Below are positions 9,247-33,220 of a DNA stretch of 64,000 nt, piece after piece. Under the pieces are notes generated by a model. That model was not told the DNA's origin. It searched no databases and saw only the letters and a list, made by a program, of their open reading frames with translations. This stretch comes from Gimesia fumaroli (GTDB taxonomy: Bacteria; Planctomycetota; Planctomycetia; Planctomycetales; Planctomycetaceae). The DNA is taken from the NCBI RefSeq assembly GCF_007754425.1, contig NZ_CP037452.1:434001-498000 (forward strand), written 5' to 3'. The position numbers were made by a program, and so were the translations under genes. The stretch's first letter is position 1. Each line of letters begins with the position of its first letter.

Positions 9247-11949
9247 TTAGTTGGCATATGCCTGATTCTGATTTCTTTCATGTATATAACTGGCCACAAC
9301 TTCAATCAGCTTTCTGCGGTCAATTGGCTTGGTCAGATAGTCATCGCAGCCGGCATCAATACACTTTTGACGATCACCACTTAACGCATGAGCTGTTAAA
9401 GCAATAATTGGTCCATGGAAATTGGCTTCTCTTAATTGTTGAGTGGCGTTATAGCCGTCCAGTACCGGCATTTGCATATCCATCAGAATCGCGTCGAAAG
9501 GGCTTCCATCTCGCATGGCGGCTGTGGCCTGATCAAAAGATATTTGTCCGTTCTCTGCCAACGAGACTTCAGCGCCTGCCTTTTTCAGAATAAAGCTGAT
9601 CAGTCGTTGGTTGTCGATTCCATCTTCAGTCACCAGAATATGTTGGTTGAGTAGCGGAAGCTCATTTGATATTTCCGGTTTTGAGTCAGTTTTCTTACTT
9701 ACCGGCGCTGTAATATGCCCTTCAATCAGGCGAATATTATCTAAGGAACCAGTGTTAATGGTGAAGGAAAAGAGACTGCCTTTTCCAGGAGTACTGGTAA
9801 CAGAAATGGTCCCCCCCAGGAGTTCTGTCAACCGTTTGCTGATTGCGAGCCCCAGACCGGTTCCACCATATTTCCGTGTCATGGAACCATCGGCTTGGGT
9901 AAACGGTAAGAAAAGCATATGGGTTTTATCTTCGGCGATCCCAATGCCGGTGTCGATGATATCAAACTGGAGTTGAGGTTGCTGACTCTGTTCATTCATC
10001 AGACGAGCAATCACCTCAACAGTTCCTGTCTCCGTAAATTTAATGGCATTTCCAATGAGATTGATCAGGATTTGAGTCAATCTTGTGGGATCAGTATGAA
10101 TTGTTTCCGGGATAGGACCATCAATGCGGAAGTCAAATTCCAGACCTTTGGTTTTTGCCTGGAGTTTCATTAAAGAGACCACCTTACGCATGATTTCGTG
10201 AGGAGAACACCGCACTAATTCTACAAGAAGCTTTTCAGATTCGATGCTGGATAAGTCGAGAATATCAGTAATCAGCTTGATTAGAAATTCTCCGTTTTCC
10301 TTGATCGTACGTGCCGATTCTACTTCGCCCGGTTCACCGGCACTGTCTAGAATAAGATCACTGAACCCCAAAATGGCGTTCATGGGAGTTCGGATTTCAT
10401 GACTCATGTTCGTCAGGAATTCACTTTTGGCGCGGTTCGCCGCCTCAGCAACTTCTTTTGCTTTGATTAGATCGACTTCAGCATGCTTACGCGAAGTAAT
10501 GTCCGTTGCATACAGGTTGACGTAGCTCTCTTCTTTGGCAATCGGTGTCACGATCAGAGAGTAATATCGATCGATGGCATCGATCTCAAGTTCAATCGGC
10601 TCACATTTTTCCAGAGCCTGCTGACAGGTATAATAGATTTCGTCAGGAAGTGGTTTTTCCTTTTGGGTTTCCCAGAAATCAAGTAAATGTTTACTCGATT
10701 TATTGGCGTATAGTAACGTCCCGTCAGCAGAGGCTCGCATGACCGGGTTGCTATCTTCGTCGGGGAATCGTGACAGCCGCTCAATTGCTTTGGAAGATCG
10801 TTGCTGTTCTGTAATATCCAGTATGACGGCTACAAAAACCTTTCTCGTTCCTAGAACAGAAGATTCAATGTGCACTTCGACTGGATATTCTGACCCATCT
10901 TTTCTACGATGTATGCTGTTTAATTCGACATAGCTTTGCAAACCAAGCTTGAGAGGCTCCAGCATCCTTTCTAAATCAGGCTTTGTGAGACCTGATGTGA
11001 TATCCACAGGAGTAAGTTTTTGCAATTCTTCCAGATTATAACCAATATTGAGTCGCGCTCCTCGATTGGCATAAATAAAATGGTAGGTCTCGGGATCGCC
11101 GATAAATATTTCGTTATGAGATTGATCCAGAATTTTACCGAACGCGCTGAGTTGTTCGGCTCGTTCATTCGCTGCTAACAACTCTTCAGCCTGCTGTTTC
11201 AGTTCCAGAGTTTTCTGCTCCAGTATACGGTTATTTTCTGAGATCAACTGGTTAGCTGAATGTAATTCGTGTGTTCGTTTTTGAACCTCTGTTTCTACTG
11301 TTTCGTTGGTTTCTTCCAGTGTTGCTCTTTGTTGTGCCATTGCTCTCATTTCACGCAAACTCTGATTAATGGCAATCAGCAGAAAGATATCTTCAAAGAC
11401 AACCCAGGCACCATGCTCTACGATCCGCCAGGGGCTTGCTGAGAGAGTCCCGAATACTGCCTGCGGATAGAAGAGACCAAATGCAGTATGATCGATGACT
11501 ACTACTGTTGTGGCTGTCACCAGTACACGCCAGTCTCGATAAAAGGCCAGAAACGCCAGCGATCCAAAAATATGGAAGTGTGTTTCAATGCGCCCTCCAC
11601 TCAGATGGATCAAGAGCGATGATGTCAACATTTGGCCAATCGCAATTGAATGCCGTGTTAAGGTGGCACCAGGACGGAGATAAGTTAATAGCACAGGGAA
11701 GAGGGTAATCAATCCCCCAAATAATATTGCCGCCCAGACATGCAGATGTGTTTCGCTGACAGAGCCGATCCATGTTCGTGGAGTTACCAGAAATGCGGCT
11801 CCGATCGCAGCAAACCACTGCACAATCATCAGACAGGCAAAGAGTCGGTCGGTTCTTCTGTAAAGATCTCGCCGATTAACCGTAAACAGTTCATCCGCCC
11901 TTTTCGAAGCTGTTTCGTTCATCGTTGCAGATAAAATTCGAGTAGGCAT
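9247..11949 (-). CDS. Membrane hybrid sensor histidine kinase / response regulator
   Basis: About 900 residues from ATG 11949. Order: an N-terminal region of six or so membrane helices (residues 30-210, MASE-like); a coiled coil; two PAS domains (about 270-400 and 405-490); a HisKA domain with MSHEIRTPMN (His near 516); an HATPase domain with FTQADGSMTRKYGGTGLGLAISKRL split over its G boxes; and a C-terminal receiver with ILMDMQMPVLDG (Asp near 820) and LTKPID. The start is fixed by AGGAGA eight bases upstream and by the TAATG overlap with the RedB-like gene. The signal is unknown. Coupled translation with a thioredoxin-fold membrane protein hints at redox or metal sensing, by inference. Confidence 0.92.
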   Translation of the reverse strand: MPTRILSATMNETASKRADELFTVNRRDLYRRTDRLFACLMIVQWFAAIGAAFLVTPRTWIGSVSETHLHVWAAILFGGLITLFPVLLTYLRPGATLTRHSIAIGQMLTSSLLIHLSGGRIETHFHIFGSLAFLAFYRDWRVLVTATTVVVIDHTAFGLFYPQAVFGTLSASPWRIVEHGAWVVFEDIFLLIAINQSLREMRAMAQQRATLEETNETVETEVQKRTHELHSANQLISENNRILEQKTLELKQQAEELLAANERAEQLSAFGKILDQSHNEIFIGDPETYHFIYANRGARLNIGYNLEELQKLTPVDITSGLTKPDLERMLEPLKLGLQSYVELNSIHRRKDGSEYPVEVHIESSVLGTRKVFVAVILDITEQQRSSKAIERLSRFPDEDSNPVMRASADGTLLYANKSSKHLLDFWETQKEKPLPDEIYYTCQQALEKCEPIELEIDAIDRYYSLIVTPIAKEESYVNLYATDITSRKHAEVDLIKAKEVAEAANRAKSEFLTNMSHEIRTPMNAILGFSDLILDSAGEPGEVESARTIKENGEFLIKLITDILDLSSIESEKLLVELVRCSPHEIMRKVVSLMKLQAKTKGLEFDFRIDGPIPETIHTDPTRLTQILINLIGNAIKFTETGTVEVIARLMNEQSQQPQLQFDIIDTGIGIAEDKTHMLFLPFTQADGSMTRKYGGTGLGLAISKRLTELLGGTISVTSTPGKGSLFSFTINTGSLDNIRLIEGHITAPVSKKTDSKPEISNELPLLNQHILVTEDGIDNQRLISFILKKAGAEVSLAENGQISFDQATAAMRDGSPFDAILMDMQMPVLDGYNATQQLREANFHGPIIALTAHALSGDRQKCIDAGCDDYLTKPIDRRKLIEVVASYIHERNQNQAYAN

Positions 11950-12635
11950 TATTGATTCTCCTGCTGACAAACATCGTTTCGTCCAAGCAAAGGGCATCCA
12001 AAGGTGAATGTTGTTTGTTTGTCGGTATTGCCACCGATTAAGATTGTTTCGATTGCTGTTCTTCCCGCGTTGTCACCTGAATGGCCCCGTGAACCCGTGA
12101 TACCACCGTGAAATAATAATTGTCCATTTGCATCATAAAGTAAGACATAACCGGAAGTCGTGGCACCAAATAATTGAGCCTCGGAACCATCGATATCACT
12201 GGAAACAGAGACCCCGGGGATGTGCTTCGCTGTTTCCCAGAGATCTGTCTTTTCCCAACCTTCAAGAAAATGGGCAGGTTTAAAGAATAATACGCGGGCA
12301 TCAATCCGTTCTGGACCATGCGCCATGATCAAGGCCAGTTCGCCAATGCTGGCACGCGTGCAAGGACAACGAGGGTGCGCAAACATAACCAGAGTCGGCC
12401 GTCTATGATTACAGGTCATACGACTGTCTATTGGCCAGCTGATTGGTGCATCGGGAACTTCCCCCGGCGTCACTTGATACTCCCAGATTACAGACATGCC
12501 AAGAAATACTGCCCCCAGCCAGAGAATAACCATAGCAGGTAGAGCCAGACTTTGGCTCATCCCTTTTGGGGGAGGCAAATCTTTTTGGTCAATCATCTTC
12601 TCAGAGTGTGACATCTGATGGCTTTGTGAATTCAT
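11949..12635 (-). CDS. RedB-like membrane-anchored thioredoxin-fold protein
   Basis: About 228 residues with one transmembrane helix (about 30-52). The soluble periplasmic domain begins with TLVMFAHPRCPCTRASIGEL, where CPC stands in the place of the thioredoxin CxxC/CxC site. The later region SGYVLLYDANGQLLFHGGIT is the usual strand carrying the cofactor-side loop. I recognise the pattern from proteins annotated RedB in planctomycetes and proteobacteria. The role is probably thiol redox or metal handling. The stop codon overlaps the kinase start by one base (TAATG), so the pair is likely one functional unit. Confidence 0.65.
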   Translation of the reverse strand: MNSQSHQMSHSEKMIDQKDLPPPKGMSQSLALPAMVILWLGAVFLGMSVIWEYQVTPGEVPDAPISWPIDSRMTCNHRRPTLVMFAHPRCPCTRASIGELALIMAHGPERIDARVLFFKPAHFLEGWEKTDLWETAKHIPGVSVSSDIDGSEAQLFGATTSGYVLLYDANGQLLFHGGITGSRGHSGDNAGRTAIETILIGGNTDKQTTFTFGCPLLGRNDVCQQENQ

Positions 12636-13206: not shown

Positions 13207-14004
13207 TTAGTAAGAGGGGGCAGACATCCGTTCGACACTGACCTCCATTCGTAGTAAATCGACAGGGTCTCCGAATTGTGAGTAGATGGCAACGTCAGCG
13301 GCATCTCGACCGTACGCAATAGCGACTCGTCCCCCTTGCAGGTTGTCTTGTGTTGGGTCGAATGTGTACCATCGTCCTCCGACATAGGCTTCAAACCAGG
13401 CGTGCAGGTCCATCGGTTCAAGCGTTTCCAGATACCCCACGACCATTCGCGCGGGGATCGAAATCGCCCGACAACAGGCGATACCTAAATGCGCCATATC
13501 CCGGCAGACCGCCAGCGATTTTTCATTGACTTCGCAGGCGCTGATAATCTCCTGCCCCTCTCCGGGTGCATACTGAATCGTGTTGCGAATATACTCAACG
13601 ATTGCAGAACACTGGTCGTACCCGGGTGCCCGTCCTTCGACGATCGACGAAGTCATCTGAGTGAAGCGATCAGATTCGCAATAACGACTTGGCAACAAAA
13701 ATGGTAGTGTCTCATCAGGCAATTGCTCCACTGGGACAAAATGAGCCCCTGGAGCCGAATCAGAAGCATCAGCGGCTTCTATATCAACTGACGTTTGTAT
13801 GGAGAACGGACCAGCAGGCGCCACCAACCGCTGACATAGATTACCAAACGGATCGGTGAACTCGACCGCTGACACACTGGGTGACAATACATACTGTTCC
13901 CTGCCAACCCACTGCTGATATCCACTGCGGGGACGAAGCATGAGCAAAAAGGGGGTGGCAACCGGAATGTTGAATTCAAGGAGGCAAGATGCATGTAGCC
14001 ACAT
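13207..14004 (-). CDS. Transglutaminase-like cysteine protease family protein
   Basis: A transglutaminase N-terminal beta domain (residues 1-90) is followed by a core domain whose catalytic triad is visible: Cys in [14 protein letters not shown] (near 170), His in [13 protein letters not shown] (near 205) and Asp in WYTFDPTQ (near 221). The end [15 protein letters not shown] matches bacterial transglutaminase-like proteins (about 265 residues, usual length). Such proteins are cytoplasmic or periplasmic thiol peptidases of unknown substrate. The gene stands alone and is the last normal gene before the tRNA scar. ATG 14004 has GGAG 13-16 bases upstream, a loose ribosome site. Confidence 0.88.
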
Positions 14005-14270: not shown

Positions 14271-14308
14271 AAAAAAAGGACTTAGAGCGATATTGCCCTA
14301 AGTCCTTT
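14271..14308 (-). terminator. Rho-independent terminator downstream of the tRNA-Leu fragment
   Basis: On the minus strand the arms AAAGGACTTAG (14308-14298) and CTAAGTCCTTT (14285-14275) pair perfectly over 11 bases, with a 12-base loop, and end in a T run. Its position just beyond the tRNA 3' end suggests it is the original terminator of the tRNA gene. Confidence 0.85.
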
Positions 14309-14318
14309 GATATCAAAG

Positions 14319-14375
14319 TGCCCAAGAGAGGACTCGAACCTCCACGGGGATTACCCCCACTAGCCCCTCAAGCTA
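14319..14375 (-). pseudogene. 3' half of tRNA-Leu(GAG): probable integration (att) site
   Basis: Read on the minus strand, the segment begins in the anticodon arm with the GAG anticodon (loop around TTGAGGG). It then shows the long class II variable arm (GGGGG..CCCC), a normal T arm (GGAGG TTCGAGT CCTCT) and the acceptor strand CTTGGGC plus discriminator A; CCA is not encoded. The matching 5' half (acceptor GCCCAAG and D arm) is absent upstream. Breakage at the anticodon loop is the usual footprint of tyrosine-recombinase integration into tRNA genes, where the far end of an island keeps only the 3' fragment. The next ~290 bases (14376-14667) hold no gene that I can support. Confidence 0.8.
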
Positions 14376-14667
14376 AAAAGGCTATATATCAAGGATGCCT
14401 CAATCACATTGTAATCGTATTATTATCAAAAGGTTGCGTTTATTCAACGTTGAAAACTGATTGAAGTCATATTGCATTGAAATTCTCAATTCTGTCCGCG
14501 ATTTGTCCGCGGTAGCAATAGTCTGATCAGCAGCCTATATGCAGTACATGGAACGAAACTATCAACACCCCTGGGTTGCATTAGAGTTAAAAAACAGAGT
14601 CGACGTTACTACGAACTATACTGACATTTAGATTTTCAGAATACACTTTCACACCATTGGGCCATCT

Positions 14668-15750
14668 ATGAGCTTCATCCTGCAACCTTGGCAACTATTC
14701 TTCATCATGATGGCTGGTTGGGTTAACAGGCACCAGCAAGAAGTGATCGAATACCTGAGAACCGAGAATCAGGTTCTTAAAGAGAAACAAGGTAAGAAAC
14801 GCATTTTGCTAAATGATGAGCAGCGTCGAAGGCTTGCCGTTAAAGGTAAGATTCTGGGACGTAAGCGACTCGAAGAAGTCGGTACTCTGTTTACACCAGA
14901 TACGATTCTTCGCTGGCATAAAAAGTTGGTTGCCATTAAATGGGATTATTCTGATCTTCGCAAAAATAACTCAGGCAGACCTCAGCTGTCTGATGAAGTC
15001 AAGCGATTAGTCTCGAATCGCAAAAGAGAACGGCACCTGGGATATGATCGGATTGCTGCTGCTGTTATAAATTTGGGCTACAAGATTTCTGACGAATCGG
15101 TACGCCAGATTCTTAAAGAACAGGGCATTGAACCAGCGCCTGATCGCAAACACTAGACAACCTGGGGCACCTTCCTCAAAGCACACTGGGAGGTATTGGC
15201 TGCGATCGACTTTGCCACTGTGGAAGTCTGGACGAAAGGTGGGCTTGTTACTTTCTATTTGCTGTTTGTAATCGAACTGAAGACGCGCCGAGTTCATTTC
15301 GCTGGCTGCACAACGAGTCTCCACGAAGCATGGATGAAACAGATTGCCAGAAACTTGTCAGATGAGGAAGATGGTTTTCTGGTTGGAAAACAGAAGCTAA
15401 TCATGGATCGTGATTCAACTTTTTGTGAGTCGTTTCGGTCGATCTTAAGCCAGTCAGATATTCAGCCGATAGTTTTGCCTCCCAGACCACCCAATCTGAA
15501 TGCTTTTATTGAGCGATTCTTTCGCTCACTCAAATCAGAGTGCCTCGACAGAATGATTTTCTTTGGTGAGAATTCATTAAGGAATGCCATCAAAAAATAC
15601 TTGGTTCATTATCACGCAGAACGCAATCACCAGGGACTCGATCACCGTATCATTCAACCGGGAGAGGAAGTTGGCCAAAATGCTGGTGAGGTTGAGTGTC
15701 GCGAGCGGCTTGGTGGGCTGCTGAATTATTACTATCGCAAGACAGCGTAG
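14668..15750 (+). pseudogene. Integrase-core (DDE) transposase interrupted by one amber codon
   Basis: One frame runs from ATG 14668 to 15750, broken only by TAG at 15154-15156. The N-terminal part has a helix-turn-helix (TILRWHKKLVAIKWDYS; LGYDRIAAAVINLGYKISD). After the stop the frame continues TTWGTFLKAHW and the rve domain, with all acidic residues in place: IDFATVEVW (Asp), IMDRDSTF (Asp) and NAFIERFFRSLKSEC (Glu). Readthrough would give ~360 residues, the usual length for this IS3/IS481-like group. Since only one base differs from an intact gene, the inactivation looks recent. I could not find terminal inverted repeats. It lies 300 bases from the tRNA scar. Confidence 0.8.
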
Positions 15751-16127
15751 AGATACTAATTACATTATTCTGTGTCTTTTGCGATCACGGTATGCGCACT
15801 CCATTGAAATCCAGCACGAAAGGTTTTCTATCTTACCAGCGTACAGTGACAGTCATCGGAGAATTGATCTCACTAACGGCGAACAAAACCAAATTTTCAA
15901 GGATCTTATCGCGCGGCTGAATAAATTGACCATACGGGATCGAGACGTTGCATGCGCAAAAAGAACTTGGCAAGGTGGCAATCCCAATAACACTTGAATT
16001 TAGTAATACGCTGATTGACCTCAGGAATTTCATCATCATGAGGATGCCGCAGGAGTACTTCGATACTCAAATTTATCGATGGATACATCTACTTGGTACT
16101 ACAGGCATTTCGGCGTTCGCTTTTCCG
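15751..16127. other. Gene-free interval between transposase and exporter operon
   Basis: About 375 bases with only short frames on either strand, none with a recognisable motif. It may hold decayed DNA from the transposition, and the terminator region of the minus-strand exporter operon. Confidence 0.4.
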
Positions 16128-17234
16128 TTAGTACATCCGTCGCCGAAACAGCCAAGCGGCCGTGCCAAGAGTCACGATCCCGATTACCGCCATTGGCCAG
16201 AATTGGTCAATCAGCAGTTCGAACGGAGTACCTTCTAGAAATACGGATCGTAGAATGATCATAAAGTATCGCATCGGATTTAAATAAGTAAGTTTCTGCA
16301 CAATAGACGGCATGTTGGCTATAGGTGTGGCAAACCCGGAGAGAATAATGGCAGGAACCAGAAACATGAATGCACCTAGTAAACCTTGCTGTTGAGTCGT
16401 GGACAGAGACGAAATCATCAATCCCACACCAATGGCCGACAGAAGAAACAGTGCAATGCCGGTATAGAGAGTGATTACGCTTCCCAGAAGAGGGACTTGA
16501 AACCAAAAAACGGCAACGAAAATAATGAACGTAGCCTCGCCCATGCCAATAATAAATCCGGGTACGGCTTTTCCGATTAGAATTTCCCATGGCCGATACG
16601 GTGTGACCAGCAATTGATCGAATGTGCTCTGTTCACGTTCTCGAGCCACGGAGAGGGATGTAACAATCATTGTCACTACAAGGGTCAGCAAACCGACAAT
16701 GCCTGGTATAATGAACCATCGACTGACGAGATTGGGGTTGAACCAGGCTCGCACCTGAAGGCGGGCGGGCGGTCCGGGGAATCCATTGCGACGCGCCCAT
16801 TGAACATTAAAGTTTTGAATGATCGTATCCGCATAGCCATTGGCAATCATTGCTGTATTGGAGTCACGTCCATCGACAATTACTTGCACGTCGGTTGTTC
16901 GGCTTTGGTACAGGTCACGACTAAATTGTCGTCCAATATGCAGGACTACGATCACTTTTTTTGTGTCGATTAGTGGTGAGATTTGGTCATCGTGTGTGAT
17001 TGTGGCAACCCGTTGAAAGTTGGGGGAACCATCAAATCTCGCGATGAGTTCTCGTGACAATTCACTGTTACTCTCATCATAGATTGCTAAGGGAACATTC
17101 GTTAGATCAAACGTAGCTGCATAGCCAAATACAACGAGCTGGATTATGGGCGGACCGATGATCACGAACCGGCTTTTGGGATCCTTAAGCAGGGTGAGAA
17201 ACTCTTTAATGATTAAGGCCACGAGGCGTGACAC
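16128..17234 (-). CDS. ABC-2 type transporter permease (YbhR/YhhJ-like)
   Basis: About 368 residues with the ABC2_membrane_3 layout. One N-terminal helix (KDPKSRFVIIGPPIIQLVVFGYA split at residue ~20-40) precedes a large extracytoplasmic domain (about 45-175) and five C-terminal helices. The family motif VAREREQSTFDQLLVTP occurs near residue 205. It is the last gene of a four-gene minus-strand operon after adaptor, double ATPase and sister permease, 11 bases from the latter. With that sister it should form the heterodimeric membrane channel of an exporter like Escherichia coli YbhFSR, which is linked to drug and cation efflux. The substrate here is unknown. Confidence 0.88.
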   Translation of the reverse strand: MSRLVALIIKEFLTLLKDPKSRFVIIGPPIIQLVVFGYAATFDLTNVPLAIYDESNSELSRELIARFDGSPNFQRVATITHDDQISPLIDTKKVIVVLHIGRQFSRDLYQSRTTDVQVIVDGRDSNTAMIANGYADTIIQNFNVQWARRNGFPGPPARLQVRAWFNPNLVSRWFIIPGIVGLLTLVVTMIVTSLSVAREREQSTFDQLLVTPYRPWEILIGKAVPGFIIGMGEATFIIFVAVFWFQVPLLGSVITLYTGIALFLLSAIGVGLMISSLSTTQQQGLLGAFMFLVPAIILSGFATPIANMPSIVQKLTYLNPMRYFMIILRSVFLEGTPFELLIDQFWPMAVIGIVTLGTAAWLFRRRMY

Positions 17235-17245
17235 CTATTTATCTC

Positions 17246-18379
17246 CTAATCTAACTGTTTGCGTGATTTGTATCGCGTCAGCCCAAGGAAAAGCGTGGCC
17301 ATCATTGCCAGTGCCATTGCGTTGGGTAACAACACGGACCATACATCGCCTGCCAAAAAGATTGTCTGCAAGATCGCTACAAAGTATCGCGCCGGAATAA
17401 TATGTGTCAGTAACTGAATCGGATACGGCATGCTTCCGATGTCAAAAATAAATCCCGATAGAATGAACGCTGGCAGAAATGTGGTGATGATGGCTACTTG
17501 AGCCGCCACAAACTGGATGCGGGCGATCGTCGATATTAATAAACCCATTCCCAAAGCAGTTAGCAGGAATAGCGATGTGCCGACCAGAAGCACCCACATT
17601 GATCCTCGTAGTGGAACATGAAACAACCAGACTCCCATTCCGACTGACAAAGCCATGCCTCCCATCCCTAGCACAAAGTAAGGCAAAATTTTTCCGATCA
17701 GGACTTCGCGCATTGCGACAGGCGTCGCCATCAGGGCTTCCATCGTGCCACGTTCCCATTCGCGCGCCATAACCAATGCTGTTAACATCGCTCCGATCAG
17801 AGTCATGATGACAGCGATCAGACCAGGAACGAGAAAGTTGCGGCTCCTGAGGTTGCTATTGAACCAAATACGCTGTTGAATTTTCACGGGAACTAGCAGC
17901 GGTAAACCTTCGTCAGTTGATCGGCGTTCCAGCCATTTTGAATACGCACCTTGGCTATATCCGATGATCAGACGCGCCGTGTTGGCATCGACACCATTCA
18001 CAACAAGCTGAATTGATGCACCATTTGATCGACGGAGCTTTTCGGAAAAGTCATTGCGAATATGTAGTATTGCATCAACCCGCCGTTCCATCATTGCCCG
18101 TTGAGCGGTATGCAGACCATGAATATATATGGGCTGGAAGTAGTGGGAATGTTCAAACTCGGAACACAGACTGCTGGTATCGGCCGAAGGCTGATCGACC
18201 ACAAGTGCAATAGGAATATGTTCAGCGTCGAGCGATACACCATAACCGAACAGTAATAGTAAGATGACTGGTAAGACGAAAGCAATCGCCAGTGAACTCG
18301 GATCGCGTAGAACCTGTAGGAATTCCTTCCGCAGCAGTCCACGAAGTCGCATCAGTGACCCACCGCGATTCGACATCAT
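17246..18379 (-). CDS. ABC-2 type transporter permease (YbhS-like)
   Basis: About 378 residues with the same fold as the following permease: N-terminal helix at LRDPSSLAIAFVLPVILLLLF, a soluble domain, then five helices with the motif MAREWERGTMEALMATPV. I start it at ATG 18379 (ATG 18376 is equally possible) because GAGGTGG lies four to seven bases upstream. An in-frame TTG at 18436 would overlap the ATPase gene. It sits between the double ATPase (31-base gap) and its sister permease. The paired permeases are only distantly alike, as is usual for YbhS/YbhR. Confidence 0.87.
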   Translation of the reverse strand: MMSNRGGSLMRLRGLLRKEFLQVLRDPSSLAIAFVLPVILLLLFGYGVSLDAEHIPIALVVDQPSADTSSLCSEFEHSHYFQPIYIHGLHTAQRAMMERRVDAILHIRNDFSEKLRRSNGASIQLVVNGVDANTARLIIGYSQGAYSKWLERRSTDEGLPLLVPVKIQQRIWFNSNLRSRNFLVPGLIAVIMTLIGAMLTALVMAREWERGTMEALMATPVAMREVLIGKILPYFVLGMGGMALSVGMGVWLFHVPLRGSMWVLLVGTSLFLLTALGMGLLISTIARIQFVAAQVAIITTFLPAFILSGFIFDIGSMPYPIQLLTHIIPARYFVAILQTIFLAGDVWSVLLPNAMALAMMATLFLGLTRYKSRKQLD

Positions 18380-18410
18380 CAGGCCACCTCTAACTGTGTA
18401 TACAGGAGTC

Positions 18411-20219
18411 TCATGATTTTTCCTCATGCGAATCAATCAGGTGAATGAACGCATCTTCCATTGTTGGCTCCGGTGCTTGTTCTGTTTGTACGCTACGTTT
18501 GATTTCAACAGGAGTGCCGAGAGCCAGGATCTCGCCGGTAATCATGATAGCCATTCGGTCACAATATTCGGCTTCTTCCATAAAGTGCGTCGTGACCATC
18601 ACGGTAACTCCCTGATTTGCCAGATCATTGATGCGATGCCAGAATTCGCGACGGGCCAACGGGTCGACACCAGAAGTCGGTTCGTCAAGGAACAGGATGT
18701 CTGGTTCGTGCATCAGCGAGCACGCTAATGCTAAACGTTGTTTGTAACCGAGTGGTAATAGACCGCTGGTTGTGTTGTATACGGGACCAAGTTCGAATTC
18801 ACTGGTCGCCCAGTTAATGCGTTCGCGCCGCTTTTGACCTGTCAGTCCGTAGGCACTGCTAAAGAATCTCAGGTTGTCAGCCACGCTCAATGTTCCGTAC
18901 AGTGAGAACTTCTGCGACATATAGCCGATGCGAGCGCGCGCTGCTGCGGCTGTCTTGCGAACATCAACCCCGGCCACCTGCAATGTTCCGCCACTGGCTG
19001 GGAGCAGACCGCACAACATTCGAAACATCGTTGTCTTGCCGGCACCGTTCGCTCCGAGCAGACCGAAGACTTCGCCACGGTTTACATCGAACGACACACT
19101 CTTCACTGCATAAAAGTTACCAAATCTTCGTTGCGCATCTCGTACTTCGATGTCATGGTCAGTGCCCATGCTATATTTTATTGTTGATTGCGGAGGTAGA
19201 TTGGAAACAGAGTGAACGGAATTCTCGATCTCTTCGGCACGGCGTTTACGGAGCATCGCAATGAAGCCATCTTCGAAACGGGGTGGAACACTGTTAATCG
19301 TTGCGTTTGGTGCATCGGGCAGAAGTATATCGGTTGACGAATCTGCATTTGACCGAAGCACTACCCGCACGGCATCCCCTTGAATTACGGCATCAATGAC
19401 ACCAGGTTGCTTCGAGAGCGATTCCTGCACGTCACGGTTTTTCTGATGCGGAACGCGCGCTTGGAACGTTTGTCCGGCCAAAGGCTGACTGAATTCCGAT
19501 GGTGAGCCGTGTCCCAACAACTGACCCTCATCGAGAATAATGACTTTGTCGCAGCGTTCGGCTTCATCAAGATAAGACGTGCTGAGCAGCACGGTAGTGC
19601 CCTCCTGTTGCACGAAGCGTTGGACGATTTGCCATAACTCACGCCGAGACACAGGGTCGACTCCCACCGTTGGTTCGTCTAATAACAGCAGATTTGGTGG
19701 GTGCACCAGCGTGCAGGCGAGCCCGAGTTTCTGCTTCATGCCTCCGGAAAGGCGCCCCGCCAGCCGCGACATGAATGGGGATAATCCTGTCATATGCATC
19801 AAATCGTCGTAACGCGCTGCTCGCAACTTGACGGGTACGCCTTGCAAGTCGGCGTACAAATCGAGATTTTCTTGAACAGACAGATCTTCGTACAAACCAA
19901 ACCGCTGCGGCATGTAGCCGATGTGGGCCTGGAGAGACAAAGCATCGAGGGTGGTCTCCATTCCAAGCACTGTGATTTTGCCAGTATCCGGAAAGAGCAA
20001 TCCTGCGGCCATCCGCATGAGAGTGGTCTTTCCGGCTCCATCAGGACCAATCAATCCAGTCACCATCCCTCGAGAAACTGACAAGCTCACTGAGTTGAGA
20101 GCCTGCGTATTCCTATGGGAAGCTGGGAAACTTTTACTGACGTTATCGAAGAGCACTACTTGCTGACTGAGATTCTTGCCTAGCGTTCCCAAGTTGTTAC
20201 TCGCTGTTATGTTGTCCAT
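18411..20219 (-). CDS. ABC transporter with two fused ATPase domains (YbhF-like)
   Basis: 602 residues holding two nucleotide-binding domains in tandem. The first has Walker A GPDGAGKTT (near 57), signature LSGGMKQK and Walker B LLLLDEPTVGVD. The second has Walker A GANGAGKTT (near 392), a degenerate signature LPLGYKQR and ILFLDEPTSGVD. The switch His is present in MVTTHFMEEAEYCD but is replaced in the first half (LLSTSYLDEAERCD), so the two ATP sites may not be equivalent. This fused architecture is characteristic of YbhF in the YbhFSR exporters. It is cotranscribed with the HlyD-like adaptor 43 bases upstream. Confidence 0.92.
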   Translation of the reverse strand: MDNITASNNLGTLGKNLSQQVVLFDNVSKSFPASHRNTQALNSVSLSVSRGMVTGLIGPDGAGKTTLMRMAAGLLFPDTGKITVLGMETTLDALSLQAHIGYMPQRFGLYEDLSVQENLDLYADLQGVPVKLRAARYDDLMHMTGLSPFMSRLAGRLSGGMKQKLGLACTLVHPPNLLLLDEPTVGVDPVSRRELWQIVQRFVQQEGTTVLLSTSYLDEAERCDKVIILDEGQLLGHGSPSEFSQPLAGQTFQARVPHQKNRDVQESLSKQPGVIDAVIQGDAVRVVLRSNADSSTDILLPDAPNATINSVPPRFEDGFIAMLRKRRAEEIENSVHSVSNLPPQSTIKYSMGTDHDIEVRDAQRRFGNFYAVKSVSFDVNRGEVFGLLGANGAGKTTMFRMLCGLLPASGGTLQVAGVDVRKTAAAARARIGYMSQKFSLYGTLSVADNLRFFSSAYGLTGQKRRERINWATSEFELGPVYNTTSGLLPLGYKQRLALACSLMHEPDILFLDEPTSGVDPLARREFWHRINDLANQGVTVMVTTHFMEEAEYCDRMAIMITGEILALGTPVEIKRSVQTEQAPEPTMEDAFIHLIDSHEEKS

Positions 20220-20262
20220 CTTCTGGCGACTGGCGATCCAGTTCCATTTGAAGTAAATTCGG

Positions 20263-21270
20263 CTAATTTGGTGACTGGCTGATAAGTTTTATCTTGACGG
20301 TGGCTGGCATTCCAAGCCGGAGTTCGCTTTTTGGATTCTTCACGAACACGCGGACTTGATATACCAGCTTGGTACGCAGCTCAGCAGTTTCGACAGGCTT
20401 GGGTGTGAACTCTGCCGTTGGTGAGATAAACCCGACCCACGCTTCATATTCTTTTCCAGGAAAACTATCTGTGATAACGACAGCCTTCATCCCATCGTGG
20501 ATTTTTCCCAAGTCCGGCTCAGATACATATGCTCGCACCCACACTGGATCAACAAATGCAAAAGTGAAGACAGGTTTTTGTGGCGAAGCCATATCGCCGA
20601 CTTCCAGAATGCGTTCTTGTATAATTCCACGTGATGGTGCATAGAGTGAAGCATCTTTAAGATCATGCTTTGCCTGTGCAAGTTCTATTTCCATCCGTTT
20701 GAGCACTGCTTTGGCTTCAGCAATGTCTTCTTTGCGAGGCCCGGCCTTTGCCAGATCGAGGGATGCCTGCAGAAGCTGGGCGTTCGCCGCTGCTGAGTCA
20801 CACTTTGACTTCGCATCATCGACTTCCTGTAGTGAGACGGCTTTCTTTTCCCTTAATGCCAGAATTCGCTTCAACGTTGCAGCTGCATCATCATATTCGG
20901 CCTTAGCTGATAAAAGCGAGGCTTCAGCCTGACGAATTTCTTCTGGTCGCGTACCTGCTTCGAGTCGGGCTACGACCTGTTGTTGGATTTCGATCTGAGC
21001 TTTCGCTCGTGCCACTTTCAATTCAAATCGTTCCAGTTCCAATTCCGCCAGGAGTTGTTTCTGCTCGACAAAATCACCCTCTTCCACAAGAATTCGTCCG
21101 ACTCGCTCGCTACCGTTGATTGCCAACTCCACCTGTCGAATATCAACATTTCCGTACAGCACGAGTGTGTCGTCGTTAGTGTCCTGCTGCCGTGCTTTCC
21201 AATACCAAGATCCACCGGCTATGCCACCTGCAAGAGTAACGAAGATCATGACGCGTACGATTGTTTTCAT
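20263..21270 (-). CDS. HlyD-family membrane-fusion protein (YbhG-like)
   Basis: 335 residues with one N-terminal signal/anchor helix (about 6-23). Next is a biotinyl-lipoyl-like half-motif (VGRILVEEGDFVEQKQLLAELE), a long coiled-coil hairpin rich in Ala/Glu/Lys (about 75-210), the second lipoyl half and a beta-barrel domain (VWVRAYVSEPDLGKIHDGM). This is the periplasmic adaptor that links the inner-membrane ABC exporter to an outer-membrane channel. It is the first gene of the operon, transcribed away from the HEAT/proton-ATPase unit. No TolC-type partner is encoded next to it, so a channel elsewhere would be shared. Confidence 0.9.
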   Translation of the reverse strand: MKTIVRVMIFVTLAGGIAGGSWYWKARQQDTNDDTLVLYGNVDIRQVELAINGSERVGRILVEEGDFVEQKQLLAELELERFELKVARAKAQIEIQQQVVARLEAGTRPEEIRQAEASLLSAKAEYDDAAATLKRILALREKKAVSLQEVDDAKSKCDSAAANAQLLQASLDLAKAGPRKEDIAEAKAVLKRMEIELAQAKHDLKDASLYAPSRGIIQERILEVGDMASPQKPVFTFAFVDPVWVRAYVSEPDLGKIHDGMKAVVITDSFPGKEYEAWVGFISPTAEFTPKPVETAELRTKLVYQVRVFVKNPKSELRLGMPATVKIKLISQSPN

Positions 21271-21583
21271 GAGTCATACAATTCTTTCTAATAATTATGA
21301 TATCAGAACTAATCATCCTACTAAGACCCAAGCTGATTGTCCATCTGTGGAGATTTGAAATAGGCTAGTTCTAATTTAGGAATTATTCTTAAGTTCTTAT
21401 TACAATGTGGAGGGAAACGTAAAAAGGAATTCATCTGATTCTCAACAGAAAATATATACCGACGAATTCAATCATTGAGCAGGCTTATTGCAGATCTTGA
21501 TGTACTTTTTTTGCTGTTGAAGATATACTCCATTCTATGCAGGAGAGTATGAAAATAGAGGACACACATCAGGAGACAAACAT
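21271..21583. promoter_or_regulatory. Divergent intergenic region between exporter and proton-ATPase units
   Basis: About 310 bases between two units read outward in opposite directions, so it must carry both promoters. It is AT-rich. AGGAGA (21571-21576) is the ribosome site for the HEAT gene. I see no convincing FNR, sigma-54 or other known operator, and no coding frame with support. Confidence 0.45.
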
Positions 21584-22117
21584 ATGACAGACGAAGCTAA
21601 TCAAGCATCATCACAATCTGGTTCCGATAATGCTCAAATTACTGAATGGATACAACTGCTTGGCAGTACAGACAGCGAGGAGCGACAAACTGCACGCCGT
21701 CATTTAGCCAATACTGGGGAATTTGCAGTTCCTGCGCTCATCACTGCCTTGGGCGACTCTTCCGAAATGCTCCGATGGGAAGCAGCGAAGACACTGGGTG
21801 AAATCCGATCCCCATCGGCGATACCTGCTCTTATAGAAATGCTGACTGAAGACTCTGAAGTTAAATGGGTGGCGGGTGACGCATTGATTGCGCTGAGTGA
21901 GACCGCGGTCCCACCGTTGCTGAAAGCATTAATCCACGAAACCGGATTGATCAGAGACGGCGCATGTTATGTTTTGCACCATTTAGCTGGCGAAAACGAT
22001 AATCTTCGTGAGACACTGAGGCCTGTCGTTGAAGCCCTGAAGTCGCTGGATTCATCTCTTACGGTACCAGTGGAGGCTGAAAAAGCACTCTCGCAACTTT
22101 CAGAACCCGGATTATAA
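21584..22117 (+). CDS. HEAT-repeat protein
   Basis: 177 residues, with about four HEAT/PBS-lyase-like repeats. Each carries the pattern of paired helices ending in DSSEMLRWEAAKTLGEI or DSEVKWVAGDALIAL. No signal peptide; probably cytoplasmic. The ATG has AGGAGA seven bases upstream. The gene ends 12 bases before the proton ATPase gene. HEAT proteins are generic protein-binding scaffolds. Its place ahead of the pump suggests a regulator or assembly partner of the ATPase, but this is inference. Confidence 0.75.
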   Translation: MTDEANQASSQSGSDNAQITEWIQLLGSTDSEERQTARRHLANTGEFAVPALITALGDSSEMLRWEAAKTLGEIRSPSAIPALIEMLTEDSEVKWVAGDALIALSETAVPPLLKALIHETGLIRDGACYVLHHLAGENDNLRETLRPVVEALKSLDSSLTVPVEAEKALSQLSEPGL

Positions 22118-22129
22118 AAAGCATGAGAC

Positions 22130-24766
22130 ATGTCAAACCAATTGGATTTCAAGGAGCTCTCTGCTGACGAAGTGGTTGAAAAGCTTCAGGTTAATCCATC
22201 TACGGGACTCATGACGGAGCAGATTGGATCGCGTCAGCAGCAATACGGATTCAACGAAATTCCTGAAAAAGAAGAAACTCTTCTCAGTCGCATTCTGAAG
22301 CGGTTCTGGGGACCAATTCCATGGATGATCGAGATCGCCGGGATCCTTTCAGCTGCTGTTGGCAAGTGGGAAGATTTTGGGATTATTATGATCCTGCTGT
22401 TGGTCAATGTTGTGATTGACTTCCGGCAGGAAGCAAAAGCGATCAGTGCATTGAAGCTGCTCAAAGAGAAGCTTGCTCGTTTGGCGCTCGTATTACGAGA
22501 CGGGCGTTGGAGCGAAATTCCGGCACGCGAGCTTGTTCCCGGCGATGTCATCAAACTACGGATCGGCAACGTCATACCGGCGGACGTCACTCTGATTGAT
22601 GGTGCGTATCTCCAGGTGGACCAGTCTGCGTTGACTGGTGAATCAGTACCGGCCGACAAAATGACGGGTGATATTGCCTACGCGAATTCAGTCATCAAGA
22701 TGGGAGAGATGGTTGCAGTTGTTACCGGAACCGGTTTGAACACGTTTTTCGGACATACGGTTGAGTTGGTCGCTCAGGCTGAGAAACATGAACACAGCCA
22801 CCTTCAGAAGGCAGTAGTCAACATCGGGAACTATCTGATTCTGATAGCCGGAGTGATGGTCGTGCTGATCATTTTTGTCGGGTTGAACCGACACGACTCA
22901 CTAATGGAGATCCTGCGGTTTTCACTCGTACTGATGGTTGCATCAATTCCAGTGGCATTGCCAGCTGTACTTTCGGTGACAATGGCCGTCGGAGCGATGC
23001 GGCTGGCGCAACACCAGGCGATTGTCAGCCGACTGGTGGCTATTGAGGAACTGGCGGGTGTCGACATTCTCTGTTGTGACAAAACCGGGACATTAACGAA
23101 GAACCAGATGAAACTGGAAGAGCCCGCTCTTTTAAACAACTTCACACGCGATGATGCGCTGTTTTATGCGGCACTCGCCAGCCGAGTAGAAAATAATGAT
23201 CCATTGGAATCGCCAATCTTTCAGGCCGTGCAACATTCTCATATCCAGCAGCGTCTGTCTGATTGTGAACAATTAGATTTCACTCCTTTCGACCCGGTCA
23301 GAAAGCGGACAGAAGCCACGATTAAATTCGGAGACGATAGCAGTCGTATTGTGACCAAGGGGGCTCCACAGGCTGTTCTTGCTCTGTGCGATGATGCGGT
23401 AGTTGAAGAGACTGTCATCAGGCAAGTGGAGCAGTTTGCACATAACGGGTATCGCACGCTCGGTGTTGGTGTCCGTTCGCCAGATGAGTCCACATTCCAC
23501 TTTGTTGGATTGCTGCCGTTTTATGACCCACCGCGGGACGATTCTGCTGAAACGATCGCTACCGCGAAACGATTGGGCCTCGATGTTAAAATGATTACCG
23601 GTGACAACCTTGCCATCGCACGTCAAATCGTCGAGATTCTTGGAATTCAGGGGGAAATCCGTAATCACACAGAACTCAGCGAAGAGAGACCAACCGAGTT
23701 ATTGTTAATTGCCGATGTTGTGACCGAAACGCTCTATGGTCGGTTGAAGTCCGATGCAACATCTGACGAAGTGCGTGCTGTGGTCGAGGAAGTCGTAAAT
23801 CGACTGGAAGAACGGTTGCGAGATGTCCGTCCGCACAATGGGTTCGTGCGACGTCATGAATCGGAGATCGTTCGGCTAATTGAAGAAACTGGCGGCTTCG
23901 CACAGGTATTTCCCGAAGACAAATATCACATCGTTGATCGGCTGCAATTGAACGATCATATAGTTGCTATGACAGGTGACGGAGTTAACGACGCGCCAGC
24001 GCTAAAAAAGGCAGATGCTGGCATCGCAGTCTCCGGGGCCACCGATGCTGCCCGCGCTGCAGCGGATATCGTGCTATTACTTCCTGGTTTGTCAGTCATT
24101 ATCAATGCAATAGAAGAATCCAGGCAGATTTTCGGCCGAATGAAGAGCTATGCGATCTTCCGTATTGCAGAAACGCTGCGCGTGATACTATTTATGACGT
24201 TGGCCATCACAGTGTTCAATTTCTACCCTGTGACGGCAATCATGATCATCATCCTTGCGCTGTTAAACGACATCCCGATCATGGCGATTGCCTACGACAA
24301 TTCAAAAATCGAACCACATCCCGTGAGGTGGAACATGCGTGAAGTTCTGACAATCGCCTCGGTCCTGGGGCTGGCCGGCGTTGTCTCTTCGTTCCTCTTA
24401 TTCTTCATTCTGGAAGAGATGCAGTTTTCAAGGGGACTTATGCAGGCCATTCTGTTCCTCAAGCTCGATATTGCCGGGCATTCCACAATCTATGTAGCCC
24501 GTACTGGCGAGCGGCATTTCTGGGAGCGACCCTTTCCGTCACTGAAACTGTTTATCCCTGCAATGTCCACGCGTATTGTTGGAACTTTGATTGCCTGTTA
24601 CGGAATCTTTATGGAGCCAGTGGGCTGGAAGATGACAGGTTACATCTATCTATATGCAACAGTCTGGTTTGTCTTCAACGATTTTCTGAAAGTTGCTGTG
24701 TACCGAATGCTGAATCGTACTAAATGGCTGCTGGGCCGCGAGCACGTTCATGAGATAATAAAATGA
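22130..24766 (+). CDS. Plasma-membrane proton-efflux P-type ATPase (type IIIA)
   Basis: 878 residues with the full P-type layout. It has an N-terminal cation-ATPase region, actuator motif LTGES (near 170), phosphorylation motif CDKTGTLTKNQ (Asp near 320), nucleotide domain with TKGAPQAVL, hinge MITGDN and MTGDGVNDAPALKKADAGIAV, and about ten membrane helices. The short N-terminus and IRNHTELS resemble the proton pumps of plants, fungi and archaea. A segment of roughly 70 residues (about 525-595, charged and Arg/Glu rich) is inserted between the hinge motif and the GDGVND motif and is unusual in length. It hydrolyses ATP to expel protons, so it probably draws on ATP made by the acetate-kinase pathway encoded next to it. 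Confidence 0.92.
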   Translation: MSNQLDFKELSADEVVEKLQVNPSTGLMTEQIGSRQQQYGFNEIPEKEETLLSRILKRFWGPIPWMIEIAGILSAAVGKWEDFGIIMILLLVNVVIDFRQEAKAISALKLLKEKLARLALVLRDGRWSEIPARELVPGDVIKLRIGNVIPADVTLIDGAYLQVDQSALTGESVPADKMTGDIAYANSVIKMGEMVAVVTGTGLNTFFGHTVELVAQAEKHEHSHLQKAVVNIGNYLILIAGVMVVLIIFVGLNRHDSLMEILRFSLVLMVASIPVALPAVLSVTMAVGAMRLAQHQAIVSRLVAIEELAGVDILCCDKTGTLTKNQMKLEEPALLNNFTRDDALFYAALASRVENNDPLESPIFQAVQHSHIQQRLSDCEQLDFTPFDPVRKRTEATIKFGDDSSRIVTKGAPQAVLALCDDAVVEETVIRQVEQFAHNGYRTLGVGVRSPDESTFHFVGLLPFYDPPRDDSAETIATAKRLGLDVKMITGDNLAIARQIVEILGIQGEIRNHTELSEERPTELLLIADVVTETLYGRLKSDATSDEVRAVVEEVVNRLEERLRDVRPHNGFVRRHESEIVRLIEETGGFAQVFPEDKYHIVDRLQLNDHIVAMTGDGVNDAPALKKADAGIAVSGATDAARAAADIVLLLPGLSVIINAIEESRQIFGRMKSYAIFRIAETLRVILFMTLAITVFNFYPVTAIMIIILALLNDIPIMAIAYDNSKIEPHPVRWNMREVLTIASVLGLAGVVSSFLLFFILEEMQFSRGLMQAILFLKLDIAGHSTIYVARTGERHFWERPFPSLKLFIPAMSTRIVGTLIACYGIFMEPVGWKMTGYIYLYATVWFVFNDFLKVAVYRMLNRTKWLLGREHVHEIIK

Positions 24767-24894
24767 GCATGATATGGCTCGTATTTTAAAATGAAGACGA
24801 ACTGAAAGAACTACAAAATGAGCCGCTAGGGACTGCACGTCCACATGCGCAAAACTAACTTCGTTCGGATTGCAGAATGACGAAGGAGCCACCT

Positions 24895-26088
24895 ATGAAA
24901 CTATCTAACGCACGCATCCTTACGATCAATGGCGGCTCGTCGAGTATCAAGTTTGCGTTGTTCGAGCCTGGTCACTCGCTCCAACGCATTCTGGAGGGAG
25001 GAATTGATCGGATTGGACTAGCGGATGCCGCTCTGCGTGTGAAAGTCTCGAATCAGGCGGACTCCATTTCGCAGCCATTATCGGCACCAGATCACACAGC
25101 GGCGGTGGGTACTCTGATGGATTGGATTGAGGAATACTGCGGACGTGATGTTTTGACCGCGATAGGGCATCGTGTGGTGCATGGCGGGCCGAAGTTTAGC
25201 AACCCGCAGCGAATCACTGCGGAAGTGATTGAAGAGTTGCACCGGCTGAGTCCATTCGCTCCGAATCATCTTCCGGAGGAGATCTTGTTGATCGAGGCGT
25301 TTCATCGCCGATTTCCCGACTTGCCTCAAGTGGCATGTTTCGATACGGCTTTTCACCATGATCTGCCACGTGTGGCCCGGTTATTGCCGATCCCGCGCCG
25401 CTATGAAGCACAGGGAGTGCGGCGGTACGGGTTTCATGGGTTGTCATATGCGTTTCTCATGGAGGAGTTGGCCCGCCTGGTCGGATCGAAAGCGGCACAA
25501 GACCGGGTCATCCTTGCTCACCTCGGCAATGGAGCCAGTTTGGCGGCGGTGCATCGCGGCAAACCCGTGGACACGAGCATGAGTTTCACTCCGACTGCAG
25601 GCGTGCCGATGAGTACTCGTTCCGGTGACATCGATCCCGGACTTGCTTGGTATCTAGCACGCACTGAGAGTCTCGATGCAAAGCAATTCAACGAGATGGT
25701 CAATTTTAAGTCCGGTTTGCTCGGCGTGTCGGAAACCAGTTCCGACATACGTGACTTGCTCGAACTTGAAACGCAGGACGTGCGTGCGGCTGAGGCGGTC
25801 GCGCTATTTTGCTACCATGTCAAGAAATGGATCGGCGCATTTGCGGCAGCCTTGGGGGGATTGGACACATTGGTATTTGCTGGGGGAATCGGCGAAAATT
25901 CGCCACTGATCCGAAAGCGGATCTGCGACGGACTCGGTTTTCTCGGCATCGAATTAGATGACACGTACAACGCGGAAAATGTATCGCTGATTTCATCGAA
26001 CGTAAACCGTGTCGCAGTGCGAGTCATTCGCACGAATGAAGAGCAGATGATCGGTGAGACGGTTTGCCGCGTTCTTGGTCTTAGTTAA
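24895..26088 (+). CDS. ackA: Acetate kinase
   Basis: 397 residues from ATG 24895, chosen because AAGGAG (24883-24888) sits six bases before it; an ATG 18 bases upstream is in frame but has no site. All family landmarks are visible: LTINGGSSSIKFA, HRVVHGGPKF, CFDTAFHHDLP (catalytic Asp), AHLGNGASLAAV, MSTRSGDIDPG, FAGGIGENSP and RTNEEQMI. It makes ATP and acetate from acetyl phosphate. Followed by phosphoketolase after 18 bases, whose product is acetyl phosphate, so the pair is a complete substrate-level ATP-generating step. No phosphotransacetylase gene is seen here. Confidence 0.95.
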   Translation: MKLSNARILTINGGSSSIKFALFEPGHSLQRILEGGIDRIGLADAALRVKVSNQADSISQPLSAPDHTAAVGTLMDWIEEYCGRDVLTAIGHRVVHGGPKFSNPQRITAEVIEELHRLSPFAPNHLPEEILLIEAFHRRFPDLPQVACFDTAFHHDLPRVARLLPIPRRYEAQGVRRYGFHGLSYAFLMEELARLVGSKAAQDRVILAHLGNGASLAAVHRGKPVDTSMSFTPTAGVPMSTRSGDIDPGLAWYLARTESLDAKQFNEMVNFKSGLLGVSETSSDIRDLLELETQDVRAAEAVALFCYHVKKWIGAFAAALGGLDTLVFAGGIGENSPLIRKRICDGLGFLGIELDDTYNAENVSLISSNVNRVAVRVIRTNEEQMIGETVCRVLGLS

Positions 26089-26106
26089 AAAAAGGAGAAT
26101 GGAACG

Positions 26107-28476
26107 ATGAAGACAAAGACGCTTTCTCCAGAATTGCTTCACAACATGGATGCCTACTGGCGTGCCGCAAACTATTTGTCAGTGGGGCAGATTTATCTAT
26201 ATGACAATCCACTATTGAAACGGCCGCTGACACTGGCGGATGTAAAACACATGCTGCTGGGACATTGGGGAACGACCCCCGGGCAGAATTTCATTTACGT
26301 GCATCTGAACCGGGTCATCAAGCAATATGACCTCAACATGATTTACGTGTCCGGTCCCGGACATGGTGGGCCGGCCGTCGTGGGCAACACTTATCTTGAA
26401 GGCACTTATAGCGAAATCTATCCCGAGATCAGCCAGGATGAAGCCGGGTTGCAGAAGCTCTTTCTCCAGTTTTCGTTTCCCGGAGGAATTCCCAGCCACG
26501 CATCACCGGAGTGCCCGGGATCGATCCACGAGGGCGGGGAACTGGGCTATTCGCTTAGCCATTCGTTCGGCGCGGTGTTCGATAATCCCGATCTTATCGT
26601 CGCCTGTGTTATTGGCGATGGTGAGGCGGAAACCGGACCTCTGGCCACGGCATGGCATTCCAACAAGTTTCTCGATCCAGCCACCGATGGTGCGGTGCTA
26701 CCAATTCTACATCTGAACGGTTACAAGATCGCCAACCCAAGTGTCCTTGCCCGCATTGAGCACGAGGAATTAGAACAGTTGCTTTGGGGGTATGGTTGGA
26801 CGCCTTACTTCGTTGAGGGACACGAGCCTGAGTTGATGCATGAAGCCATGGCTGGAGCGCTTGACATAGCAGTGGAGCAGATCAAAAAAAATCAGCAGGA
26901 CACCCGTATCCACGGCAATTTGGCGCGTCCCCGTTGGCCGATGATTGTTCTCAAATCACCAAAGGGTTGGACAGGGCCAAAGATAGTTGATGGCCTTCAG
27001 GTTGAAGGCACCTTCCGTGCGCATCAGGTGCCTCTCTCCGACCCTGCTACTCATCCCGAGCATCTGAAGCTGTTGGAAGACTGGCTGAAGAGTTATCGAC
27101 CGGAAGAACTCTTCGATCAGCAGGGCCGCTTGAAACCGGAACTGGCGGAACTGGCTCCCTGTGGCGAACGACGTATGGGCGCAAATCCCCACGCCAACGG
27201 TGGCTTGCTGCTGCGCGACTTACAGATGCCGGATTTCCGCGATTACGCGACCGATGTGCCCACGCCAGGGGTCCTTGGCATTGGTGATACGCATGTGCTC
27301 GGACCTTTTGTGCGCGATGTGGTGAAACTAAACAGCAAACAGCGAAACTTCCGGGTCTTCGGTCCTGACGAGACGCTCTCCAATCGCTTGGAAGCTCTCT
27401 TTGAAGTAACCCAACGCCAATGGGACGCCGCCACTGAGCCAAACGACGAATTTCTCGCACCCACTGGGCGCGTGATGGAAATGCTCAGCGAACACCAATG
27501 CGAGGGCTGGCTCGAGGGCTACCTGCTCACTGGACGACATGGTCTCTTCAACTGCTACGAGGCGTTCATCCACATCATCGATTCGATGTTTAATCAGCAC
27601 GCCAAGTGGCTGAAGGTCACGGCGGAGTTGCCGTGGCGGCAGAAAATCGCGTCGCTGAATTACCTGCTGGCCTCCCACGTCTGGCAGCAAATGCACAACG
27701 GTTTTACCCACCAGGATCCCGGCTTCATCGACCACGTCGTAAACAAGAAGGCCGAGGTCGTGCGGGTTTACTTTCCGCCGGATGCGAACTGCTTGCTGTC
27801 AGTGATGGACCACTGTCTGCGCAGTCGCCATTACGTCAATGTCGTCATCGCGGGCAAGTATCAAGCACCACAATGGCTGACGATGGACGCTGCTGTCAAA
27901 CACTGCACCGAAGGCATCGGCATCTGGCAATGGGCTAGCAACGATCAGGCCGTTTCGCCCGATGTGGTCATGGCCTGCTGTGGTGACGTTCCCACGCTGG
28001 AGACACTTGCCGCCGTCTCCCTGATGCGCGAACATCTGCCCGAACTGAAAATCCGGGTGGTTAATATTGTCGACCTGATGAAGCTGCAGCCGCCCACAGA
28101 GCATCCGCATGGGCTGAGCGACATGGATTTCGATGAACTTTTCACCACAGACAAGCCGGTGATCTTCGCCTTTCATGCCTATCCGTGGCTGATCCATCGG
28201 CTGACCTACCGCCGCACGAACCACGACAACATCCACGTCCGTGGCTATAAAGAAGAGGGGACCATCACAACGCCTTTCGATATGACGGTATTGAATGAGC
28301 TAGACCGCTTTCACCTTGTGATGGATACCATCGATCGTCTGCCGCAGACTGGCGACAAGGGCATCTTCTTGAAGCAGCAACTCAAGGACAAGCTCATTGA
28401 GCACAAGCAGTACATCAACAAGCACGGCCAAGACATGCCGGAGATTCGAAACTGGAATTGGAGTAACACCTTATGA
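26107..28476 (+). CDS. xfp: Xylulose-5-phosphate/fructose-6-phosphate phosphoketolase
   Basis: 789 residues, the normal length. The thiamine-diphosphate motif [19 protein letters not shown] (near 175) and family signatures [37 protein letters not shown] and [15 protein letters not shown] are present, with the C-terminal domain [19 protein letters not shown]. It splits xylulose-5-P or fructose-6-P with phosphate into acetyl phosphate plus triose or erythrose phosphate. AAGGAGA upstream gives the ribosome site. Its stop overlaps the aldolase start as ATGA. In a planctomycete, where Embden-Meyerhof glycolysis is normal, this adds a fermentative bypass. Confidence 0.96.
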
Positions 28477-29495: not shown

Positions 29496-29563
29496 GCATG
29501 ATAGCAAGTATCCCTCATTTCACGCACGTTGCGGTATCGTTGAGCCAGAAAGAGTACACCACT

Positions 29564-29767
29564 ATGAAACCAAGTGTCGACCTAACCAAGTCTCATGAAT
29601 CGAAGTCCAATGTAAAGGACGATTTGAATTCCCTACCTTTTATGGAACTGGAGAAACAAATGGATGTGTCGCAGGACGGCCTCAGTCAAGCTGAGACGCA
29701 GCAGATCGTAAGCAACACCCTGAACGATTCTAGTCTAGGTTTCTGGCAGGCGAAAGAAAGACCATGA
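29564..29767 (+). pseudogene. N-terminal remnant of a second proton-efflux P-type ATPase
   Basis: A 67-residue frame starting at ATG 29564 contains DDLNSLPFMELEKQMD followed by VSQDGLSQAETQQ, which matches the cation-ATPase N-terminal domain of proton pumps (normally continuing RLxxYGxNEI). After that the sequence loses similarity (IVSNTLNDSS...) and stops as ATGA over malQ. The rest of the pump is missing. It is a different paralogue from the intact pump at 22130, whose N-terminus is shorter and differs in sequence. A short independent protein cannot be excluded. Confidence 0.55.
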
Positions 29768-31495: not shown

Positions 31496-31537
31496 AGAAC
31501 TTCTCCACTTACGACTCAAACCGAAACGGAAAGGAAT

Positions 31538-31820: not shown

Positions 31821-31852
31821 TGTGAGTAAAATAAATCAAAAGGGTGATAATA

Positions 31853-33113: not shown

Positions 33114-33220
33114 GCTCTCCTTAGTCTTTTATTTTTCATCCAATAACAGAGATAAAAGGGTGTACCACAGACGAACCTCTATGGTACACCACCTTTAATA
33201 CAGCGACTTCCAGATATTCT

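Follow-up and report, generated by a model that had tools for sequence, protein, structure and literature searches.

We conclude, with a probability of about 0.95, that the 3' part of a tRNA-Leu(GAG) gene found in the analyzed stretch of DNA is the distal att remnant of two integrative elements inserted in tandem into a tRNA-Leu(GAG) gene that the genome contains only once. The stretch, referred to below as the window, covers bases 434001-498000 (64,000 nucleotides) of a 7.70-Mb single-contig genome (contig C1), which belongs to a genus represented by 17 genomes. Events of this type are well known, both from the islands detected by Islander and from tandem accretion, and the case described here is unusually well documented. 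The features are listed in Table 1.

Table 1 Features of the window and of the two islands that continue beyond it.
Feature	Window position	C1 position	Strand	Remarks
Chromosomal neighbour gene, left-flank anchor	11949..12635		(-)	Adjoins intact tRNA-Leu(GAG) in G005 and G006
Transglutaminase gene, last outside the island	13207..14004		(-)	Transglut_core
Intrinsic terminator 3' of the displaced tRNA half	~14271..14317		(-)	Perfect stem-loop and T run
Displaced 3' 58 nt of tRNA-Leu(GAG)	14318..14375		(-)	Chromosome-side att site of island A
Att site core CTAGC-CCCTCAA-GCTA	14360..14375		(-)	Anticodon stem and loop; last common bases before divergence
Left 49.6 kb of island A	14376..64000			Synteny break with sister genome; 98-99% blocks with G002
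Putative bipartite arm-type site TCTGTCCGCGATTTGTCCGCGGTA, island A left end	14491..14514		(+)	Repeat present at all four island ends
IS3-like transposase pieces just inside island A	14707..15750		(+)	HTH_32/HTH_21 and rve_3 domains; within G002-shared block
DDE_Tnp_1/DUF4096 transposase	34868-35751			
HTH_Tnp_1	43971			
IS110-type transposase	44539			
Island A		448376-562411		114 kb
Island B		562412-637180		75 kb
Tyrosine integrase A		534852-536105		Island A; PF00589
Tyrosine integrase B		624178-625431		Island B; PF00589

The displaced tRNA end and its chromosomal setting

The fragment contains the acceptor 3' strand, the T arm, the long variable arm, the 3' strand of the anticodon stem and the anticodon loop, as well as 4 nt from the 5' strand of the anticodon stem. 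It is identical to the 3' end of the sole intact tRNA-Leu(GAG) of the genome (C1:637123-637208), which is located 189 kb further to the right in the same orientation, and to a second 58-nt fragment (C1:562354-562411) found between the two, at 114 kb. A perfect tRNA match of 58 nt is not due to chance. Divergence from the intact gene begins past CTCAAGCTA, just beyond the anticodon loop. When ARAGORN and Rfam were applied to the window, no tRNA was called, which is what one would expect of half a gene. The terminator stem-loop has a folding energy of -21.7 kcal/mol, and the same stem-loop is found beside the displaced fragment of the sister genome, G001. A match on the opposite strand at 448275 was discarded, as it consists of the palindromic terminator only.

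To the left of the fragment, the chromosome is ordinary, being collinear with G001 at 90% over 436.2-447.1 kb, and collinearity with this sister species is seen at ~90% on both sides of the islands. In G008 and G010, the transglutaminase gene likewise has the left-flank neighbour gene beside it (85%). The site is empty in G005 and G006, where the two flanking neighbour genes and a complete tRNA-Leu(GAG) lie within a kilobase of each other and no fragment is present. Clean fragments of 58-59 nt were also found in G002, G003, G004 and G014 and a slightly altered one in G001, with G003 and G004 containing second fragments that are shorter and decayed. The interval between the flanking genes ranges from 0.9 to 190 kb across the genus, amounting to 190 kb here and to 2 to 87 kb in other species. 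When both islands were removed in silico and the flanks joined, ARAGORN recognized an intact tRNA-Leu(GAG).

These results agree with much of the first-pass annotation of the window. It had described a tRNA-Leu(GAG) 3' half with its terminator still attached, which the identity to the genome's own gene and the stem-loop confirm, and ordinary chromosome to the left, as the collinearity with G001 shows. The full tRNA that it placed beyond the window does lie there, on the same strand, and the relatives lacking the island to which it referred are represented by G005 and G006. Its reading of the fragment as an island boundary is likewise supported, although in refined form, as the fragment at 562354-562411 indicates two islands in tandem.

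Att sites, end repeats and integrases

The att core corresponds to the last bases common to all 58-59-nt fragments, with identity ending 4 nt past the anticodon loop. As tyrosine integrases use anticodon-centred sites (PMC4383910), the crossover would be expected to fall within the anticodon loop. A 24-bp repeat, TCTGTCCGCGATTTGTCCGCGGTA, occurs only at 448491, 562272, 562527 and 637041 when up to 4 mismatches are allowed over the 260 kb searched, these positions being the four island ends, and is also found at the equivalent position in relatives. Judging by its form and position, the bipartite repeat is probably an integrase arm site.

The integrases, one per island, are 87% identical as proteins, and upstream of each is a small HTH_17 gene that could encode an excisionase. 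The 10-kb backbone ahead of the integrase is common to both islands and includes JAB and ThiF domains. In addition, the block encoding a primase-like protein, a Replic_Relax protein and a VirD4/HerA-like ATPase (C1:508496-513475 and 590111-595090) is 95.7% identical between the islands. The JAB and ThiF domain genes, of the ubiquitin-like pathway, adjoin each other at C1:526835-528531 as part of this conserved backbone.

Relatives that are at least 74% identical lie beside tRNA-Leu genes in G002 (GAG), G001 (CAG), G004 (CAA) and G097 (CAG), where the arm site, a terminator and the tRNA-Leu gene come in succession after the stop codon of the integrase, all within 134-137 bp. This close clade uses tRNA-Leu genes with differing anticodon loops. 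Among more distant relatives (34-46%), the neighbour is often a tRNA gene (Leu, Asn, Gln, Lys, Pro or Met), located on the 5' side of the integrase. As the integrases of close and distant relatives alike stand beside tRNA genes, the link between the family and tRNA genes is general. The related integrase records are mostly from Planctomycetaceae, and no close relative was found in the viral contigs or phage records searched.

Two further loci differ in detail. In G014, the same tRNA-Leu(GAG) is associated with a divergent integrase (~35%) on the other strand, and TGTCCCA-type repeats near the tRNA replace TGTCCGCGG; a similar repeat is found in G016. At the tRNA-Leu(CAG) locus of G001 (L171:5880-6220), a GAG-type tRNA-Leu fragment is present between right-end and left-end arms. 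It lies at a distance of 46 kb from the intact tRNA-Leu(CAG) and may reflect an element that switched isoacceptor or a rearrangement.

In the mechanism that we propose, the attP of each element would carry a copy of the tRNA 3' half together with a terminator, and the tyrosine integrase would recombine this attP with the anticodon stem-loop region of the tRNA gene. The whole tRNA would thereby be rebuilt on one side, while the original 3' half would be displaced to the far end along with its terminator. The arrangement observed is of the Islander type, as the fragment lies downstream of the intact tRNA gene on the same strand. Since the second fragment lies between the first and the intact tRNA, there are two islands, A and B, and not one; each has a fragment and an integrase of its own, and both occupy a single att site, as in tandem accretion. 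Island A would be the older of the two. The islands may also be mobile at present, although neither an excised circle nor an empty site is visible in the strain itself.

Taken by themselves, the outer fragment and the intact tRNA could delimit one island of 189 kb, and the middle fragment would then have arisen by chance or duplication. The middle fragment, however, is followed by its own terminator, which differs from that of the window fragment, and has an end repeat on either side, one of the right-end and one of the left-end form. As each half also has its own integrase and a backbone common to both, we consider a single island very improbable. It is harder still to credit that the fragment is a tRNA-Leu pseudogene produced by non-mobile duplication or rearrangement. 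Duplication can indeed yield tRNA fragments, but one would then have to account for an identical cut point at 58-59 nt across several species, for island-specific ends and integrases, and for empty sites. Both explanations are already contradicted and were rejected in favor of tandem integration.

Island content, transfer between species and proposed fusion

Two expectations of the first-pass annotation were borne out only in part. It had placed a tyrosine recombinase next to the tRNA, and while recombinases are present, they are found ~26 kb (island A) and ~11.7 kb (island B) from the att sites. Similarly, it had described the right side as rich in transposases and pseudogenes; several transposase genes or remnants are found there (Table 1), yet most of the genes tested are intact cargo. 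In the window, the cargo of island A includes an ABC exporter, a P-type ATPase, a phosphoketolase, a 4-alpha-glucanotransferase, an isoamylase-like protein and an RND efflux system. Further to the right, island A contains a sulfate permease and, in the part beyond its integrase (A2), glycosyltransferases and an RHS-repeat protein. Island B carries, at C1:562809-577996, SspA-SspB-SspC-SspD together with DndB and PbeA/PbeC-like genes, a phosphorothioation-type defence cluster.

With regard to an integrative and mobilizable element (IME), which would depend on helper functions, the integrase, the VirD4-like ATPase and the Replic_Relax protein are present, and no oriT or relaxase was identified. 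A complete ICE was considered and rejected, as no match to the VirB4-type secretion ATPase (PF03135) was found in the genome; the VirD4/HerA-like ATPase, which is conserved, and the Replic_Relax protein are present. A prophage was considered as well: the integrase has no close relative in the viral contigs or phage records searched, and no virion structural or packaging genes were found among the subset of proteins scanned.

Comparison with G002 revealed a total of ~44 kb of island A at 98-99% identity, in several blocks, as opposed to chromosomes that are only 73-76% identical. The alignment begins at the fragment and runs for more than 1 kb without a mismatch from the tRNA part rightward, while nothing to the left of the fragment aligns to G002 and the terminators differ. 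Judging from these alignments, island sequence has recently moved between species. In G002, the pieces of island A are found at two places, C1:481500-519000 and 4064000-4132500, a distance of 3.6 Mb separating the left end from the integrase/tRNA end; such a split over distant places suggests that the G002 chromosome was rearranged through the island. The 18 kb around integrase A, in contrast, match G001 at 92%, about the chromosomal level, and island A thus looks mosaic when this stretch is set against the G002 blocks.

The distance of the integrases from the att sites should be considered together with the arm found directly behind each integrase, which is a hybrid, its prefix being that of a right end and its suffix (TAGC) that of a left end. 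The hybrid arm of island A is degenerate and shared with G001, and that of island B has lost one repeat. Such a mix of prefix and suffix was found in none of the 9 right-end and none of the 5 left-end arms compared. Together, the remote integrases and the hybrid arms suggest that each island may consist of an integrase-bearing element fused to an integrase-less neighbour (A1+A2 and B1+B2). One should, nonetheless, bear in mind that this fusion model would rest on two independent hybrid arms, of which one is degenerate. Recombination between the 24-bp arms that flank a buried tRNA fragment would delete the att core and leave one hybrid arm; around the surviving buried fragment at the A/B junction, the arm sites are ~255 bp apart.

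Alternatively, the material between integrase and att site, amounting to 26 kb in A and 11.6 kb in B, could be ordinary inserted cargo, introduced, for example, by IS elements, with no fused element being involved. Cargo and transposases are common throughout the islands, and the degenerate state of one hybrid arm also leaves room for this explanation. It does not, however, predict that both integrase-proximal arms should be hybrid when the other ends compared are not, nor a G+C content of 43% beyond the integrases (A2 and B2) as opposed to 48% in A1 and 46% in B1. Moreover, right ends without an integrase exist elsewhere, as G009 presents an arm-bearing right end at tRNA-Leu(GAG) with no integrase of this family nearby. 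We thus consider ordinary cargo the less likely explanation, and lean cautiously towards the view that arm-site recombination may weld stacked islands into larger mobile units, in which an integrase-less element would become the permanent cargo of its neighbour.

Relation to known systems and biological meaning

Insertion of tyrosine-integrase elements into tRNA genes, with the gene being restored from attP, is established (PMC4383910). Among the 3919 islands of Islander, 2083 have sites centred on the anticodon, and 125 arrays comprise two or more islands in tandem (PMC4383910). The islands described here resemble these in presenting an intact tDNA with a 3' fragment of the same orientation, an integrase per interval, a probably anticodon-centred att site and a tandem array, but differ in their planctomycete host, in the hybrid arm behind each integrase and in the distance of the integrases from the att sites. 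Stacking of elements and cis-mobilizable elements have been reviewed (PMC5704250). As in ICE/IME/CIME accretion of the ICESt1 type (PMC5704250), elements of the same specificity are stacked at one att site, some of them lack an integrase, and they are jointly movable in principle. Unlike in ICESt1-type accretion, the att core between the units is apparently deleted here, with one arm site remaining, and the pair would therefore move only as one unit; a further difference from the ICE/IME/CIME systems is that no VirB4-type conjugation gene was found in the genome. The ssrA islands of Dehalococcoides (PMC3146451) are similar in that several islands stand in tandem at one RNA gene and are mobilizable rather than conjugative, as may hold here too, but they involve a serine recombinase and the T loop of tmRNA, rather than a tyrosine integrase and, probably, an anticodon loop.

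At the level of sequence, the locus clearly illustrates the movement of islands between species of planctomycetes, whose mobile elements have received little description in the literature searched. A single tRNA locus serves as an island hotspot across the genus and, as island B carries the Ssp/Dnd/Pbe defence cluster, the hotspot also moves phage defence, while the integrase clade exploits several tRNA-Leu isoacceptor genes. Finally, the hybrid arms offer a proposed and testable route by which tandem islands may become fused.
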